A stretch of 64,000 nucleotides of DNA from an uncultured Vicinamibacterales bacterium (lineage in GTDB: Bacteria > Acidobacteriota > Vicinamibacteria > Vicinamibacterales > UBA8438), in contig OY282382.1 of assembly GCA_958295905.1 (NCBI GenBank), positions 2,690,001 to 2,754,000 on the forward strand, given 5' to 3'. Below are positions 1-13,699 of this stretch, one piece after another (the first letter of the stretch is position 1; every line of letters starts with the position of its first letter). A program made the position numbers and the translations under genes. Below the pieces are notes generated by a model. That model was not told the origin of the DNA. It made no database searches and saw nothing but the letters and a program-made list of their open reading frames with translations.

Positions 1-585
1 CCGGACCGGACGGCGATTGACCACGCCCGCGCCGGCGGGAACAGCGACGGCTGCCGCTTTCTGGCGGCGGACGTCCTGGATCTCGCCCTGCCGCCGGCCA
101 GCTTCGATCTGGTCGTTTTTTCGCGTTCGATGTGATGACTGCCCCAGGAGAGCGTCGGTGACGCTCTGCGCAAGGTGGCCGGCTGGCTGCGCCCCGACGG
201 GCGCCTGGTCAGCATGCAGCCGATCGGCCGGCCGATTCCCTTCCAGGTCCGCCGGGCCGGTCGCATCGAGCCGGTGGGCGTGGTGTACGCCACCGACGCC
301 GGCCAACGGGACATGCGGTCGTCCCGACAGGCGCTCGCCGCATCGATTCGGGCCGGCATGTTCGCGCCTCGGGCCGAGCTCTCGCGGGTGCTGGAGTTCC
401 ATTACCACAGCGAGGACGATTGGAACGAGTTTCTGAAGAGACCGCGGACGGGCGCCGTCGAGGCCGATCCGGACGTGCTCGCGGAGGCGCTCGCGGCGCT
501 GCCGCGGGAGGACGCGGTGATCGTGGCGCTGGAGGAGACCCTCTTCAATGCCTGCGATCGCGTCGGCAGGAGCATCCCACGCTGA
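1..585 (+). CDS. Partial class I SAM-dependent methyltransferase with two adjacent in-frame UGA codons
   Basis: The 5' end lies outside the window. Frame 1 reads as the C-terminal two thirds of a Rossmann-fold methyltransferase: an acidic motif (FLAADVLDLALPPASFDLVV), then FSRSM, two consecutive TGA codons at 133-138, and LPQESVGDALRKVAGWLRPDGRL, which is the usual post-motif segment before the conserved 'LRPGG' turn. The frame stays open and protein-like for 149 more codons. From memory, relatives carry one or two Cys at this spot (SWSLCC-like). Directly after the UGAs, 149-167 can form an 8-bp hairpin with a GGU loop, 18-21 nt from the UGAs, which is SECIS-like geometry. It is therefore either a selenoprotein or a doubly nonsense-mutated pseudogene. 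If the UGAs are not read, GTG175 could start a fragment. The stop (583-585) sits at the edge of repeat A1. Confidence 0.6.
149..167 (+). promoter_or_regulatory. SECIS-like hairpin just downstream of tandem UGA
   Basis: AGAGCGTC (149-156) pairs perfectly with GACGCTCT (160-167), leaving the three-base loop GGT (157-159). The loop begins 21 nt after the first UGA and 18 nt after the second. A short stem with G in the first loop positions at this distance matches what is known of bacterial SECIS elements. It lies inside the coding frame, as bacterial SECIS elements do. Function is inferred; the stem could be chance in GC-rich DNA. Confidence 0.4.
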
Positions 586-738
586 CTGCGCGTGACGGTT
601 CGCCCCCGATTCGAGGGGTCGCTACCGTCTTGCCGACCGGCCGGCGCCGCGTGAGACCCACGATGCCGCACGTCCGGAGCCCCGGGACCCGCTACGATTC
701 CGCCTGCGCACGGCGGTGGCGGAGCGTGGGATGACCCT
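568..738. mobile_element. Family A miniature inverted-repeat element, copy A1
   Basis: A 171-bp unit bounded by imperfect 16-bp inverted repeats: left AGGAGCATCCCACGCT, right AGCGTGGGATGACCCT (14 of 16 paired). A second copy with the same internal sequence is at 22239-22400. No transposase gene lies inside, so it is MITE-like. The left end overlaps the last codons and the stop of the methyltransferase frame. Confidence 0.7.
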
Positions 739-2723: not shown

Positions 2724-4778
2724 ATGAGAAGGACATCGATCGCCTGTTTCGGTGTCGCGGCCGCCCTGGCCGGCGGGGCCGCCTACGGCCAGGGCGTGCC
2801 GCTGGATGTGCGCGACGTGCGGCCCGGTCCGGCGACGGTGACCGAGGTCGAGGACGGGGTGGCGGTGGAGTGGCCGGACGAGGCCGGCCGGACGTGGCGG
2901 GCGGCGTTCTCGCTCGATCCCGACCGGCCCCTCGTCGAGTCGATCTCGGTGGACGGCGTCGCCGTGGTGTCCGCGGTGCGGCCGTTCTACCAGGTCGAGA
3001 CCGGTACGCGGCGGCGGGGGTGGAACGCCTTCTTCGACTTTCCGCCCAGCCATCCCGACGGCACCCGGCACGCCCAGGGGGTGTTCCGGCTGCGCGCGGC
3101 GGCCGCCCGCACCGTCGGCGAGCGGGTCGAGCTGACGTTCGACGGGCTGCGCATGGGGGTGTTCGAGGGGGCGATCGTCTACACCGTCTATCCCGGCAGC
3201 CGTCTCGTCCACCAGGAGGCGGTCGCCTCCACCGACGCCGCCGACGTCGCGTACTACTACGACGGCGGCTGGGAGATGGACGCCGCCGCCGACCGGACGC
3301 CCGGCGGCAACATGCGGACCCGGGTGAGTTGGTACGACACCGCCGGCGCCCTGCGGCACGACGTCTCGACCGGTTTCGACCCGGAACGGAAGCCCGTGCA
3401 GGTACGCTACCGAACCCTCGCGGCGTCCACCGCCGGCGGCAGCGTCGCGGTCTTCCCCGCGCCGCACCAATACTTCTTTCCCCGCGACTTCACGTCGAAC
3501 CTGGGACACGTCTGGCACCGTTCGTGGCGGGGGCGGGTCTCGCTCGGCATCCGGCAGATTCGCGACACCAACTGGCGCTTCTATCCGTGGATGAACGCCC
3601 CCCCGGGGGAGACCCAGCGGATGTCGGTGTTCTTCCTGCTGTCCGACGGGGCGGCGGAGGGCGCCCTCGACGACGTCCTGGCGTTCACGAACCGCGACCG
3701 GTTCCGCCCCCTCGACGGCTACAAGACCCTGAGCACCCACTGGCATCTCGCCTATACGATGCAGGCGCTGGAGCACGGGTTCGACTGGACGCCGCCGTTC
3801 AAGCCGGTCCTGAAGGCGATGGGGGTCGACGCGTCGATCATCATGGACTTCCACGGCGACGGCCACCCGCGCGATCTGACCGACCGGCGGCTCGACGAGC
3901 TCGACGCCTACTTCCGCGCCCTGCGCGCCCAGTCCGAGCCCGACTTCCTGCTGATTCCCAGCGAAGAGGCGAACGTGCACTTCGGCGGGCACTGGGCGCT
4001 CATCTTCCCGCGGCCGGTCTACTGGTTCATGGACCGGCCCGAGGGGGGCGCGTTCGAGACGACCCACCCCCGGTACGGCGCCGTCTACAGCACCGCCGAC
4101 GCGGCCGAGCTGCTCGAGCTGGTGCGGCGGGAGGGCGGCGTCATGTACCAGACCCATCCCCGGACGAAGGGCTCGACCGGCTTCCCGGACCGGATCGCCG
4201 GGACCGAGCACTTTCGCGACCCCGCCTATCTCGGCGCCGGGTGGAAGGCGATGCCCGCCGACCTCTCGTCGCCGCGGCTGGGGGAGCGGTCGTTGAACCT
4301 GCTCGACGACCTGAGCGCGCAGGGGCTGCGGAAACGCATCTTCGGCGAGGTCGACGTGTTCCAGTTCGACGCGACGCACGAGCTGTACGCGCACATGAAC
4401 ATCAACTACGTGCGGCTTGACGAGCTGCCGCCGTTCGACCGCTGGGGCGAGGCGGTCGAGCCGCTGGCGCGGGGCGACTTCTTCACCACCACCGGCGAGG
4501 TGCTGCTGCCCGAGGTGGACTTCTCGGCCTCGACCGACGATCTCCTCGACGTCTGGATGGAGGTGGACTGGACGTTCCCCCTGCGGTTCGCGGAGATCGT
4601 GTGGGGCGACGAAGCCGGCGGCACGCACCGCGAGGTCACCCCGTTGTCGCGGACGCGGCCTTTCGGCGCCGGTTCGATCGCGCTCCGCATTGAGGCCGTC
4701 GGGTGGACGTGGGCGCGGGCCGCGGTCTGGGACGTGGCCGGCAACGGCGCGTTCGTCAACCCGACCTGGCGGGAGTGA
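2724..4778 (+). CDS. Secreted PHP/CehA-like metal-dependent hydrolase
   Basis: 684 aa with an N-terminal signal peptide (MRRTSIACFG to AYGQG). The N-terminal half is beta-rich and unassigned. The C-terminal half carries clustered histidines and acids typical of PHP-type metallohydrolases: LSTHWHLAYT, MDFHGDGHPRD, IPSEEANVHFGGHW, MYQTHPRTKG and a late DATHELYAHMN. This suggests a polymetal active site acting outside the cytoplasm on an unknown ester or phosphoester. ATG2724 is chosen as the start (GAGGAA upstream, signal peptide); the frame opens earlier at 2664 without a plausible signal. The family call is by motif pattern only. The gene stands alone between the hypothetical gene and the PSCyt1 gene. 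Confidence 0.65.
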   Translation: MRRTSIACFGVAAALAGGAAYGQGVPLDVRDVRPGPATVTEVEDGVAVEWPDEAGRTWRAAFSLDPDRPLVESISVDGVAVVSAVRPFYQVETGTRRRGWNAFFDFPPSHPDGTRHAQGVFRLRAAAARTVGERVELTFDGLRMGVFEGAIVYTVYPGSRLVHQEAVASTDAADVAYYYDGGWEMDAAADRTPGGNMRTRVSWYDTAGALRHDVSTGFDPERKPVQVRYRTLAASTAGGSVAVFPAPHQYFFPRDFTSNLGHVWHRSWRGRVSLGIRQIRDTNWRFYPWMNAPPGETQRMSVFFLLSDGAAEGALDDVLAFTNRDRFRPLDGYKTLSTHWHLAYTMQALEHGFDWTPPFKPVLKAMGVDASIIMDFHGDGHPRDLTDRRLDELDAYFRALRAQSEPDFLLIPSEEANVHFGGHWALIFPRPVYWFMDRPEGGAFETTHPRYGAVYSTADAAELLELVRREGGVMYQTHPRTKGSTGFPDRIAGTEHFRDPAYLGAGWKAMPADLSSPRLGERSLNLLDDLSAQGLRKRIFGEVDVFQFDATHELYAHMNINYVRLDELPPFDRWGEAVEPLARGDFFTTTGEVLLPEVDFSASTDDLLDVWMEVDWTFPLRFAEIVWGDEAGGTHREVTPLSRTRPFGAGSIALRIEAVGWTWARAAVWDVAGNGAFVNPTWRE

Positions 4779-4998: not shown

Positions 4999-7617
4999 AT
5001 GCGGCGAACGACCATGTTGCTCGGGCTGACGGTCGGGGTGTTTCTGGCGGGCGCGTCCGGCGGCTCCGTCGCCGAGGCGCAGACGGGAGCCGAGGTCACC
5101 TTCACCGACCACATCCGGCCCATCTTCGAACGAAGCTGCTGGAACTGCCACGGCGAGGCGTCCCAGCTCTCCGGGCTGGATCTGCGGTCGCGGGAGGCCG
5201 CCGTCGAAGGCGGGACCCGCGGGCCGGCCCTGGTGCCGGGCCGCGCCGACGAGAGCCGCATCTACCGGGTGCTGGCCGGTCTCGACGACCCGCCGATGCC
5301 CATGGCCGGCGACCCCCTCAGCGACGCGGAGCTCTCGGCCATCCGCACCTGGATCGACGACGGCGCCCACTGGGACGCGGCCGGCGCCACGAGCGCCGAC
5401 GCCGCCTTGGCCGCGCTCGAGAACACCATGCTGCCGGAAGGGGCGCGCGACTACTGGGCGTTCCGGCTGCCGGCCAAGGCGGCGGTGCCCGCCTCGAAGG
5501 TCTACGACCATCCCGTCGACCGCTTCCTCGACGCGGCGCGCCGCGGGGCCGGGGTGAAGGCGGGGCCGCAGGCCGACCCCTTGACCCGCCTGCGCCGGGC
5601 CTATCTGGACCTCACCGGGCTGCCCCCGACCCCCGGGCAGGTCGAGGAGTTCCTGGCCGACACCGGGCGGGGGGCCTGGGAGCGGTTGATCGACCGCCTG
5701 CTCGACTCGCCGCACTACGGCGAGCGCTGGGGCCGGCACTGGATGGACGTGGCCCGCTACGCCGACTCGACGGGGTTCGAGCAGGACTACCGCCGCGAAA
5801 ACGCGTGGCGGTACCGCGACTACGTCATCAACGCCTTCAACCAGGACAAGCCCTACAACCAGTTCCTGCGCGAGCAGATCGCCGGCGACGAACTCGACCA
5901 CGTCACCGACGAGACCCGCATCGCCACCGGGTTCCTGCGGGCGGGGCCGCGGGTGGACTTCCGCGAGAAGGACAACCCCGAGCGGCGGCACGACTACCTG
6001 GACGACGTGCTGGCGACCCTGGGGCGCGGCGTCCTCGGCATGACCGTGCACTGCGCGCGGTGCCACGACCACAAGTTCGACCCGATCCTGCAGAAGGACT
6101 ACTACAGCCTGCAGGCGTCGATCTTCGGCTATGTCGAGATCGACTATCCGCTGCTCGATCGGGCCGACGCGGCCGAGTACCGCGGGAAAAACGCGGCCAT
6201 CGACGCCCAGCAGCAGCCGCTGCGGGACGAGATCGCCGAGATCGAGGCCCCCCACCGCGAGCGCCTGCGCCTGGAGCTGATCAAGGAGGACTTCCCCGAG
6301 AACGTCCAGCAGGCGGCGATGAAGCCGGAGGACGAGCGGACCGCCGGCGAACAGTTGCTGGCCGCCCAGGTGCTGTCGATCAATCCGCCCCGGCGGCGGG
6401 TCGTCGAGGCCCTGTCCGAGGAGGAGGGCGACCGCTGGAGCAAGCTGACGGCGGCGGTGGAGGCCCTCGAGGCCCTGCGGCCGCCGGAGCCGCCGATGGC
6501 GGAAATCGTCACCGACGGCGACTACCGGTTCGCCCCGGACGGTCCCGGCGACGAGGTCATCGGGTGCCCCGAGTGCCGCATCCTGCCCGACGAGCCGGGG
6601 TCGTTCCTCTACGAGGAGGGGGGACCGGCCTACGAGGCGCCGCCCAACTACTTCCTGATTCGCGGCGACCCGTTCAGCCCGGGGTCGCCGATGTCGCCCG
6701 GGTTCCTGACCGTGGCCACCTACGGTGCCCCGCCGATCGAGCTGCCGCGGCCGGACGGGCGCACGTCGGGCCGCCGGCTCGCGCTCGCCGAGTGGATCGC
6801 GTCGCGCGACAACCCGCTGACGGCGCGGGTCATGGTGAACCGCATCTGGCACCACCACTTCGGCCGGGGCATCGTGCGCACCCTCGACAACCTCGGCCGG
6901 ATGGGGGACGAGCCCACCCACCCCGCGCTGCTCGACTGGCTGGCCGTCGAGTTCATGGACCGCGGCTGGAGCGTCAAGGAGATGCACCGGCTGCTGATGA
7001 CCTCCGAGGCCTATCAGATGGCGTCGGCCCACGAGGACGCCGGCAGCCGCGCGGCCGACCCCGAAAACCGGCTGCTGTGGCAGTACCGCCCGCAGCGCCT
7101 GGAGGCCGAGGCCCTGCGCGACGCGATCATGACGGTGAGCGGCGGCATCGACCTCACGGTGGGCGGTCCGCCGGTCTTCCCCCATGTATCCGAGGACCTT
7201 CTCCTGGCGGCGAGGAACGGCTATTGGGACAACCAGCCGGACGGCCCCGAGGTCTGGCGGCGCAGCGTCTACGTCTACCGGCGCCGGTCGCTCGGCTTCC
7301 CGTTCTTCGAGACCTTCGACCTGCCCGACCAGAACCAGACGGCGGCGGCCCGCAACGTGTCGACGGTGGCCACGCAGGCCCTGACCCTGATGAACAACGA
7401 GTTCGTGCTGAACCAGGCCCGGCTTTTCGCGGAGCGGCTGGAGCGGGCCGCGCCCGGCGACGTCGACCGGCAGGTCGACCTCGCCTATCGAATCGCCCTG
7501 ACCCGGCCGCCGACGGCTGGAGAGGCGGAGATTGCCAGGAACCTCGCGTCCTCGCAGTCGCTCGTCGACCTGACCCACGTGATGCTCAACCTGAACGAGT
7601 TTCTGTACCTGAGATAG
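4999..7617 (+). CDS. PSCyt1 (DUF1549/DUF1553) cytochrome c-like exported protein
   Basis: 872 aa. Signal peptide about residues 1-28, then a planctomycete-type cytochrome c domain with heme motif CWNCH (47-51), then DUF1549 (starting near HPVDRFLDAARR, with DLTGLPPTPGQVEEF and HYGERWGRHWMDVARYADS) and C-terminal DUF1553 (NPLTARVMVNRIWHHHFGRGIV; ALTLMNNEFV). The second ATG (4999) sits 7 nt after GGAGG and is preferred over ATG4993, only 1 nt away. It is followed after 15 nt by the DUF1501 gene, the standard pairing for this family in Planctomycetes and Acidobacteria. Thought to act in the periplasm on polymers or in electron transfer; the exact reaction is not established. Confidence 0.92.
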   Translation: MRRTTMLLGLTVGVFLAGASGGSVAEAQTGAEVTFTDHIRPIFERSCWNCHGEASQLSGLDLRSREAAVEGGTRGPALVPGRADESRIYRVLAGLDDPPMPMAGDPLSDAELSAIRTWIDDGAHWDAAGATSADAALAALENTMLPEGARDYWAFRLPAKAAVPASKVYDHPVDRFLDAARRGAGVKAGPQADPLTRLRRAYLDLTGLPPTPGQVEEFLADTGRGAWERLIDRLLDSPHYGERWGRHWMDVARYADSTGFEQDYRRENAWRYRDYVINAFNQDKPYNQFLREQIAGDELDHVTDETRIATGFLRAGPRVDFREKDNPERRHDYLDDVLATLGRGVLGMTVHCARCHDHKFDPILQKDYYSLQASIFGYVEIDYPLLDRADAAEYRGKNAAIDAQQQPLRDEIAEIEAPHRERLRLELIKEDFPENVQQAAMKPEDERTAGEQLLAAQVLSINPPRRRVVEALSEEEGDRWSKLTAAVEALEALRPPEPPMAEIVTDGDYRFAPDGPGDEVIGCPECRILPDEPGSFLYEEGGPAYEAPPNYFLIRGDPFSPGSPMSPGFLTVATYGAPPIELPRPDGRTSGRRLALAEWIASRDNPLTARVMVNRIWHHHFGRGIVRTLDNLGRMGDEPTHPALLDWLAVEFMDRGWSVKEMHRLLMTSEAYQMASAHEDAGSRAADPENRLLWQYRPQRLEAEALRDAIMTVSGGIDLTVGGPPVFPHVSEDLLLAARNGYWDNQPDGPEVWRRSVYVYRRRSLGFPFFETFDLPDQNQTAAARNVSTVATQALTLMNNEFVLNQARLFAERLERAAPGDVDRQVDLAYRIALTRPPTAGEAEIARNLASSQSLVDLTHVMLNLNEFLYLR

Positions 7618-7632
7618 CCTGAGGTGGCAACG

Positions 7633-9099
7633 ATGCACGATCACCATCATCACCATTGCCGGAAGCGGACGTTCTGGGATCGCCGCAACTTCCTGTTCCA
7701 GTCGGGCGGCGGCATCGCGGGGCTGGCCCTCGCCCACATGCTCGACCGCGAGGGGGTGCTCGCGGCGCCCGCGGACGGCTGCGGCGACCCGATTCCCGGG
7801 AACCCCTTCGCCCCCAGGGCCCCCCACTTCGAGCCGCGCGCGACCGCGGTGATCTCGCTGTTCATGAGCGGCGGGGTCAGCCAGGTCGACACGTTCGACC
7901 CGAAGCCCGCCCTCACGAAGTACGCGGGCCAGCCGATGGCCGAGTCGGTGGTGGTGCGGCAGGGCCACCCGGGTCCCCTCATGCCGAGCCCGTTCGAGTT
8001 CCACCGCCACGGCGAGAGCGGCATCGAGGTGTCGGAGATCTTCCCCCACCTCGCCAAGAAGGTCGACGAGATGGCGTTCATCCGGTCGCTCTACGGCCGG
8101 TCGAACGACCACATCCAGGCGACCTACGAGATGCAGAGCGGCCAGATCCGGATGGGGTTCCCCGCCGTCGGCTCGTGGGTGACCTACGGGCTTGGGTCGG
8201 AGAGCGCCAGCCTGCCCGCGTTCGTGGTCATGAACGACTACCGCGGCGGCCCCCTCGGCGGCCCCAACGACTGGAGCGCCGGTTTCATGCCCGCGGCCTA
8301 TCAGGGCACGCTGTTCCGCGCCGTCGGCGACCCCATCGTCGACCTGCAGCCTCCCGAGGGGATGACGGTCGAGCAGCAGCGGGCGCGGCTCGACACGCTG
8401 GCCAGGCTCAACGAGATGGACATGGCCCGCAACCCCGGCAACTCCGAGCTCGCGGCCCGCATCTCGTCCTACGAGCTCGCGTACCGCATGCAGGGCTGCG
8501 CGCCCGAGGCGGTCGACACGTCGAGCGAGTCCGAGGCCATGAAGAAGCTCTACGGCCTCGACAATGCGCTCACCGAGCCGTTCGGGCGCCAGTGCCTGAT
8601 GGCGCGCCGCCTCGTCGAGCGCGGCGTCCGCTTCGTGCAACTGTTCCACGGTGGGCTCGGCGTGCAGAACACCGACACCTGGGACGCCCACAGCAACCTG
8701 AAGGAGAACCATACCCAGCACGCGGCCGAGACCGACCAGCCGATCGCCGGGCTGCTGACCGACCTGAAGGCCCGCGGCATGCTCGACTCGACCCTCATCG
8801 TGTGGCACGCCGAGTTCGGCCGGATGCCGATCTCGCAGCGCGGCGTCGGCCGCGACCACAACCCCGGCGCCATGACCGGCTGGATGGCCGGCGCCGGCAT
8901 CCAGGGCGGCCAAGTCGTCGGGGCCAGCGACGAGTTCGGCTACAAGGCCGAGCAGCAGCGGGTGTCGCCGCACGACCTGCACGCGACGATGCTGCACCTG
9001 CTGGGCATGGACCACACGAAGCTGACCTACCGCTACAACGGACGCGACATGCGGCTGACCGACGTGCACGGCACGCTGATCCCGCAGATCGTGGCGTAG
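7633..9099 (+). CDS. DUF1501 (sulfatase-fold) exported protein
   Basis: 488 aa, second gene of the PSCyt1-DUF1501 pair. The N-terminus has a natural His-rich stretch (HDHHHHHC) and a twin-arginine-like signal (DRRNFLFQSGGGIAGLALAHML). Features of DUF1501, a relative of alkaline phosphatase/sulfatase folds, follow: FMSGGVSQVDTFDPKP, SLYGRSNDH, LFHGG, TLIVWHAEFGRMP and GRDHNPGAMTGWMAG. ATG7633 follows TGAGGTGG; a GTG at 7624 in the same frame is inside that ribosome site and is rejected. The gene is closed by a strong terminator at 9132. Confidence 0.92.
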   Translation: MHDHHHHHCRKRTFWDRRNFLFQSGGGIAGLALAHMLDREGVLAAPADGCGDPIPGNPFAPRAPHFEPRATAVISLFMSGGVSQVDTFDPKPALTKYAGQPMAESVVVRQGHPGPLMPSPFEFHRHGESGIEVSEIFPHLAKKVDEMAFIRSLYGRSNDHIQATYEMQSGQIRMGFPAVGSWVTYGLGSESASLPAFVVMNDYRGGPLGGPNDWSAGFMPAAYQGTLFRAVGDPIVDLQPPEGMTVEQQRARLDTLARLNEMDMARNPGNSELAARISSYELAYRMQGCAPEAVDTSSESEAMKKLYGLDNALTEPFGRQCLMARRLVERGVRFVQLFHGGLGVQNTDTWDAHSNLKENHTQHAAETDQPIAGLLTDLKARGMLDSTLIVWHAEFGRMPISQRGVGRDHNPGAMTGWMAGAGIQGGQVVGASDEFGYKAEQQRVSPHDLHATMLHLLGMDHTKLTYRYNGRDMRLTDVHGTLIPQIVA

Positions 9100-11859: not shown

Positions 11860-11958
11860 GTCTGCGCCGCAGGAAAAATCAGCCCTCACATATAGATAGT
11901 GGAGTTGAAGGTCTGCAACTACTATACAGCGTCTAATCGTGCCCAAATCGTTCCGCAG
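11860..11958 (+). mobile_element. Family D MITE, copy D1 (right end eroded)
   Basis: Begins GTCTGCGCCGCAGG and contains the internal blocks GGAGTTGAAGGTCTGC and GTCTAATCGTGCCCAAATCG shared with D2 (57512-57621, inverted) and D3 (61430-61536). The right terminal inverted repeat is degenerate here. The rest of 11653-12473 has no convincing gene. Confidence 0.65.
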
Positions 11959-12312
11959 GAAATTATGGCTCTCCTCAAACGAGTGTGGGTAGGGGCGGCA
12001 CCGATCAGCGGGTCGGCGAGGGGTGCCGGCGGCGCAGGCGGCCTCGGGATTGAGCGGTCATGGTGTTCACCTGATCCGGCGGCGGACGGGCGGACAAGTG
12101 GCGGGTCGGGTCGGAGCGGAGTAGCTCTGGGCCGGCCGGCGTGTCAACGCGCTGCGCGCGTCCTCCGCTGCGCTGCGGCCCTGCGGGTGACACACCGGCC
12201 GTCCCGCCGCTCAGACAGCAGTTATGGGCCGGCCTGGACGGGGCGTCCCGGCCGTCCACGACGACGCGGCAGGCGCGACGACCGGCGGTTGGGGATAGGT
12301 GCCGGCTGATTG

Positions 12313-12363
12313 GCCCAACGGCCGCCCCGGGGCCCGGCGCCGGCCTGGGGACACCCGTTGGGC
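12313..12363. repeat. Long perfect inverted repeat upstream of the transposase remnant
   Basis: GCCCAACGG (12313-12321) pairs with CCGTTGGGC (12355-12363) around a very GC-rich interior, making a strong hairpin about 110 nt upstream of the transposase start. It could be a transcription barrier that shields a mobile element, or a leftover structure. No T-run follows. Confidence 0.4.
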
Positions 12364-12473
12364 GCGGGGCCGGGGCCGCGTGCGTCGTCTCGTTCTGCCG
12401 AAGCGGTTGCAAACGCAGGGGCTTCCTGGTCTCATGGGTGTGCACCACCACGACCCGCGAGGAGGAGAGCCCC

Positions 12474-13699
12474 ATGCGTCTGACTACGCTACTACGGCGG
12501 CTGTTGGGTGTCACGTAGATGTACGTCAAGCGGGTGGAGATGGCCGCCGACGGCCCGTTGACGGTGTCGGTGGAGCCGTCGTGGCGGCGTTCCCGGTGCG
12601 GAACGTGCGGGGGGCGGGCGCCGCGGTATGACCGGCGGCCGGTTCGGGAGTGGCGGCATCTGTCGTGGGGCCGGATGGCGGCGTGGCTGCAGTACGCGCC
12701 GTGGCGGGTGTCGTGCCCGCGTTGCGGGGTGAAGGTGGAGCAGGTGCCGTGGGCGGGCGGCGGCAGCGTGTTCACGTCGGGGTTCGAGGAGTTGGCGGCG
12801 TATCCGGCGCAGGTGATGGACCGGACGGCGGTGAGCCGCCTGCTGGGGATATCATGGTGGCGATGGGCAACATCGTGGGAACGGGTGGTGGCGCGGCGGC
12901 TGGACGGGGCTCGGTTCGGCAAGCTGAAGCGAATCGGCATCGACGAGTTCAGCTACCGGAAGCGTCACCGGTATCTGACGCTCGTGGTTGACCATGACAC
13001 GCGTCGGGTGGTGTGGGCCGGGAAGGGTCGCAGCGCGGAGACGTTGGGGGCCTTCTTCAAGCAGTTGGGACCGGGCCGGTGCGCGCGGATCGAGTTGGTG
13101 ACGGCGGACTTGGCGTCGAGCTGGCGGAAGGCGTTGGCGGCTTGGGTTCCGCATGCGCGGGTGGTGTTCGACCGATTCACGTTGAGCGGCTTGCGTCGGA
13201 TGCGGTTGACGAGGTGCGGCGTTCGGAGCAGCGGCGCCTGGACCCGGCGGATGCGAAGGCGCTGAAGGGGACGCGTTATGCGTTGCTGAAGCACCCGGAG
13301 CGGCTGAAGCCCGGCGAGGCCCGGCGTCTGGAGACGTTGCGTCGTGAGAACCGGGCGCTGGACCGGGCCTACGAACTGAAGGAGTATCTGGCGACGATCC
13401 TGGGTCAGGCGACGCCCGGGGATGCGCCGGAGCTGCCGGAGGAGTGGCTGGAGTGGGCTGCGCGGTCCCGCTTGGCGCCGTTCGTGAAGCTGGGGCGCAC
13501 GATTCGGAAACACGCGGAAGGCATCCTGGCGTATCTGGACACCCGGATGACGAACGGTCCGGTAGAGGGTATCAACAACAAGCTGCGTGTGATTGCGCGG
13601 CGCGCGTACGGTTTCCACTCGGCCGGTGCGCTCATCTCGATGCTGTTCCTGTGCTGCGGAGGCATCGAACTGGCGCCGCCCCTGCCCACACGCATTTGA
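12474..13699 (+). pseudogene. Decayed ISL3-family transposase (amber stop plus frameshift)
   Basis: ATG12474 follows GAGGAGGAGAG and reads MRLTTLLRRLLGVT, a typical ISL3 N-terminus, then hits TAG (12516-12518). The frame continues with MYVKRVEM..., a two-pair Cys zinc finger (RCGTCGG ... CPRCG), a DDE-type core (IGIDEFSYRKRHRYLTLVVDHD; VTADLASSW), and breaks at about 13178, where one C appears to be missing (FDRF/HVERLASDAVDEV). It resumes in the next frame through the family C-terminus (NGPVEGINNKLRVIARRAYGF). Intact it would be about 408 aa. Weak inverted similarity between about 12424 and 13722 may mark the ends. Inactive as read, unless the lesions are sequencing errors. Confidence 0.85.

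Follow-up and report, generated by a model that had tools for sequence, protein, structure and literature searches.

What do two consecutive UGA codons mean in the middle of a gene that is otherwise open to its end? The question is raised by a stretch of 64,000 nucleotides from an uncultured Vicinamibacterales bacterium, referred to as the window, whose first 585 nt (positions 1–585, forward strand, as for all features below) are the 3' part of a gene for a class I SAM methyltransferase. Direct reading of the sequence places TGA TGA at positions 133–138 in frame 1, exactly where a previous sequence-only reading had reported it within an otherwise open methyltransferase frame, and 148 sense codons follow before the frame reaches a further TGA (583–585), which acts as the ordinary terminator. 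The gene is cut by the window; in the whole genome its start ATG lies 153 nt further 5', at window coordinate –152 (G000:C1:2689848), and is directly preceded by GGAGGA. The complete gene has 245 codons, is otherwise intact, and carries the two UGAs as codons 96 (133–135) and 97 (136–138). Its class is indicated by Pfam Methyltransf_11, which matches the windowed part above its threshold (35.5 bits, cut-off 21.2), and by the family of 59 relatives described below. In the surroundings of the gene, a G+C-rich stretch (acccgcgttgcgccgagacgggcggg and similar sequences) is repeated in intergenic DNA on the upstream side (L002, about 4438–4520 and 4593–4680) and a looser copy is found on the downstream side (window, about 2095–2250).

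The answer favoured here, already proposed from the sequence alone, is that both codons specify selenocysteine (Sec) and that the gene probably encodes a bacterial selenoprotein, a class I SAM methyltransferase with adjacent Sec96-Sec97. On sequence evidence we give this reading a probability of about 0.93; it is supported by the exchange of residues at the site, by the Sec machinery of the genome and by a conserved hairpin.

A single sequence with a tandem stop would look no different if it were a sequencing error or a decaying pseudogene that had acquired two nonsense codons, and the matter was therefore examined in relatives. A protein search of 396 genomes of the same phylum gave the first four of them, with 32–41% identity and two internal TGA each, and a profile run on this genome set identified six members, including the query, which scored 222–339 bits and again had two TGA each. 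The next methyltransferase in the profile search reached 78 bits and had no TGA, a gap wide enough to delimit a discrete family. When the codons were read, all of the same-phylum members proved to have UGA-UGA at this site. At least 10 further members came from a scan of contigs of other genomes, in records named Acidobacteria, Terriglobia, Candidatus Sulfopaludibacter, Chloroflexi, Thermoflexales, Anaerolineae, Armatimonadetes and Acidimicrobiia, which are bin names of metagenome-assembled genomes and may be wrong. Finally, the phylum to which one Anaerolineae carrier belongs was searched in 350 genomes, 41 of which gave 44 matches in total, each with one or two TGA. Pooled and freed of duplicates, the family comprises 59 members, 44 of which have UGA at both codons (UU), 14 UGA followed by a Cys codon (UC), one the reverse order (CU) and none two Cys codons (CC). 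At the first position UGA is present in 58 members and Cys in one, at the second UGA in 45 and Cys in 14.

The earlier argument that two chance nonsense mutations were unlikely is borne out by these numbers, since the tandem UGA falls on the same codons in 44 members, in records of Acidobacteriota, Chloroflexota and Armatimonadota, and the other 15 combine one UGA with a Cys codon. Moreover, no in-frame TGA other than those of the site occurs within the aligned domain of any of the 59 members. The ratio dN/dS, calculated for eight close pairs, is 0.12–0.23 before the UGAs and 0.09–0.37 after them; this purifying selection past the UGAs indicates that the downstream part is functional protein, and the frame of 245 residues is intact. 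A pseudogene or an error is, in the light of these data, scarcely credible.

Some genomes hold two members of the family. In G469 two UC copies are separated by about 5 kb (L195, G469:C16, approximately 6995–7732 and 11876–12600), and in G492 a UU copy and a UC copy lie on separate contigs. The member of G107, a genome of the same order as that of the window, is a close relative of the one in a Solibacteraceae record (L022), from which the phylum of the window's organism is probably Acidobacteriota. The search of viral contigs gave a single short match, confined to residues 20–64, which is the SAM-binding region. Clustering of the neighbouring genes showed nothing in common outside one Anaerolineae clade and offered no functional clue to the substrate. 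A gene resembling uracil phosphoribosyltransferase is found within a few kb of the methyltransferase in one clade of Chloroflexota (L191, L195, L196, L197, L198, L199 and L201), which may be only shared gene order.

The sequence-only reading had expected one or two Cys in relatives at the place of the UGAs, and this was correct in part: the in-frame UGAs do align with Sec or Cys codons of homologues, in the combinations UU, UC and CU, but no Cys-Cys pair was seen, and the closest methyltransferases without Sec have His-His in the columns of the dyad. The Cys-Cys form was absent from the contig-scan matches listed, which were sought in part with a back-translated C-C pattern, and from the profile searches, a survey that is not exhaustive. 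A maximum-likelihood tree was built from the family and one His-His outgroup; it retained the site columns, in which Sec was written as C, so that UU and UC rows were identical there. On this tree the UU state requires 10 changes, at least seven of which are forced by well supported branches, and the UC state likewise 10, at least eight of them forced. Recurrent exchange between Sec and Cys at a single site is a classical mark of selenoproteins. The first Sec is kept in 14 of the 15 members that have only one, and its position looks more constrained than the second, as judged from the alignment. A first Sec that is more essential (Cys in 1/59) beside a second that may be Cys (14/59) would fit a nucleophile or ligand acting with a partner.

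The same exchange bears on the possibility that the locus makes two proteins, namely an N-terminal piece of 95 residues, terminated at the UGAs, and a C-terminal piece obtained by reinitiation, for which a GTG at position 175 provides an alternative start. In the 15 members with a single UGA (UC and CU) the other codon is Cys, never TAA or TAG, and here the full protein requires the reading of one UGA only. Furthermore, the methyltransferase fold spans the junction and the distance to the hairpin described below is fixed, which together make separate products very improbable.

If the two codons are to be read as Sec, the genome must hold the means to do so, and the search for the Sec machinery, suggested as a check by the sequence-only reading, found all four components in the genome of the window: selA (542 bits), selB (302.9 bits for its main stretch, over the cut-off), selD, and a tRNA-Sec with anticodon TCA. 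The six carriers of the same phylum all possess selA, selB and tRNA-Sec; among further carriers selA was found in nine of 10, the exception being G401 (the genome of L024), perhaps owing to the incompleteness of this metagenome-assembled genome, and selD was found in all 10 carriers tested. As selA is common in the phylum (250 of 396 genomes, 63%), its co-occurrence with the family is weak evidence when taken alone, consistent with Sec incorporation and not decisive. The selD gene itself has an internal TGA in eight of 10 carriers, none being present in the genome of the window and in G099, and the SelD with an internal TGA is probably a selenoprotein. A second tRNA-Sec-like gene (49.6 bits) accompanies the existing one in G092 (G092:C54:156723–156816).

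Readthrough of UGA would be expected equally if the codon had been reassigned throughout the genome to an ordinary amino acid, the residues then not being Sec. However, UGA terminates the methyltransferase gene, and other large frames of the window, free of internal TGA, also end at this codon; in the 59 members the residue that takes the place of UGA is Cys, never Trp or Gly, and tRNA-Sec, SelA, SelB and SelD are all present. We regard a genome-wide reassignment as extremely improbable, and reading as Sec remains the explanation of choice.

Bacterial SECIS elements are hairpins just 3' of the UGA with a G-rich apical loop, and a SECIS-like hairpin is found within the coding sequence after the UGAs, at positions 149–167. 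It consists of 8 bp, 149–156 pairing with 160–167, and of an apical loop GGU (157–159); its sequence in the family is usually GGGCAUG GUC CAUGCCC, and the G/U loops of the members read GGUCC, GGUCG, GGUUC and similar. The 8-bp hairpin with a GGU loop previously proposed to start 18–21 nt after the UGAs is indeed present, but these distances apply to the apical loop, which is 18 nt past the second UGA and 21 nt past the first, while the stem starts 10 nt past the second. Both loop distances are within the range of bacterial SECIS elements. The folding energy of the single sequence, a check proposed for positions 125–185, is not unusual (z = 0.15), and the significance of the hairpin therefore rests on the comparison among relatives, where the stem is conserved with compensatory changes. 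In an alignment of 16 diverse members, with the stem defined as columns 17–24 against 28–35 (column 1 being the first T of TGATGA), 96% of the stem cells are paired and five of the eight pairs have changed on both sides, whereas sliding the partner by 1–3 columns lowers pairing to 26–56%. Across the whole family, 57 of the 59 members form 7–8 of the eight pairs at fixed spacing. When synonymous codons were resampled from the usage of each gene, leaving the protein unchanged, members with at least seven pairs numbered 11.3 on average and 20 at most in 500 trials, against the 57 observed. In L158 a change from Ala to Thr is matched by a serine codon that went from AGC to AGT, and the stem is retained. 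Twelve relatives without Sec form at most five pairs in the register of the hairpin. In Rfam, the search of window positions 1–700 gave no SECIS family and two matches below threshold, chrB-a and Ysr224, which look like chance.

In the mechanism that we propose, SelB with Sec-tRNA would read both UGAs with the help of this single hairpin; that one hairpin may serve both codons is the simplest reading of their arrangement. Another possibility is that only one UGA is read as Sec and that the second mostly terminates translation or receives another residue, the working enzyme being a minor product with a single Sec. The UC members show that one Sec is enough in some cases, and bacterial UGA readthrough is inefficient, so that two such events in succession would compound the loss of product. 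Nevertheless, UU is the majority state (44/59) and persists in lineages far apart, where a second UGA that did nothing but reduce the yield would come at a cost; we consider a single-Sec enzyme unlikely, although it is the least improbable of the alternatives to Sec at both positions.

The family was also compared with known systems. None of the NCBIfam selenoprotein models reaches its cut-off on the tandem-UGA methyltransferase. The double selenoprotein MduS (NF045649) resembles it in having a methyltransferase domain and in carrying two Sec, but its model has 338 positions, compared with about 245 residues here, and reaches 43.2 bits on L018 against a cut-off of 380, with a best E-value of 1.9e-11 among 16 members. 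Its motif is given as CxxU in a review that credits MduS to Haft and Tolstoy, 2025 (PMC13188914); the distinction is drawn from profile score and described motif. For two MduS-like proteins without Sec, L204 (G013) and L205 (G098), the match is limited to the first 217–219 of the model's 338 positions, and Tyr-Cys is found close to where the dyad aligns. The models NF041536, NF041537 and NF047649, which describe ArsM or methyltransferase fusions, combine a SAM methyltransferase domain with Sec, but these proteins have a second domain and the Sec motif UxxG (PMC13188914), and the models score 22–29 bits on the family against cut-offs of 460–575. The best or near-best NCBIfam match is the corrinoid protein-associated methyltransferase CpaM (NF043040), which matches 16 of 16 members but only in the SAM-binding half, with 59.3 bits against a cut-off of 180, and is not described as a selenoprotein by NCBIfam. 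Consecutive Sec-Sec has been reported in the algal PDI_e, with the motif GUGUU, called by its authors the first Sec-Sec selenoprotein (PMC7539508) and the sole precedent for tandem Sec found in the literature; it is, however, an unrelated eukaryotic protein with a thioredoxin-like fold and a eukaryotic SECIS system. No UU motif was found in the table of a 2026 review, which covers 119 prokaryotic selenoprotein families and subfamilies (PMC13188914).

The protein in which the dyad is embedded has the SAM-binding motif and the fold of a class I SAM methyltransferase. The AlphaFold model, predicted with the 16-row alignment (pLDDT 92.1, pTM 0.89), shows this fold and matches many solved class I methyltransferases, closely tied and with Z up to 20. 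In the model the dyad directly follows the strand 86–92, which is beta-4, at whose edge the active-site residues of class I methyltransferases are usually located; the dyad would accordingly belong to an active-site loop. As Cys replaces Sec in the model and SAM is not bound, it is from the fold that we argue for a dyad close to the methyl group. On its function, we tentatively suggest that the vicinal selenolates hold the acceptor to which SAM donates its methyl group, either a soft substrate (metal, metalloid or chalcogen) or a thiol or selenol, a proposal that is less than an even bet. Ranked next, and a little more doubtful, is a redox switch, in which a Sec-Sec or Sec-Cys pair would gate catalysis or protect it.

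Taken further, the data lead us to favour, by a narrow measure, the view that this is the first bacterial family defined by a Sec-Sec dyad, encoded by tandem UGAs with a single SECIS, in which the dyad would be the catalytic or substrate-binding centre and no all-Cys form would be tolerated. The enzyme family is widespread in bacteria and apparently undescribed, with members in records of Acidobacteriota, Chloroflexota, Armatimonadota and Actinomycetota, and ordinary gene calling would split or truncate all of its genes. Tandem Sec is very rare and is here the majority state, from which it appears that one SECIS can support two successive readings of UGA. That no Cys-Cys forms were found suggests that the chemistry needs selenium, and the recurrent changes from U-U to U-C constitute a natural experiment on the role of each Sec.
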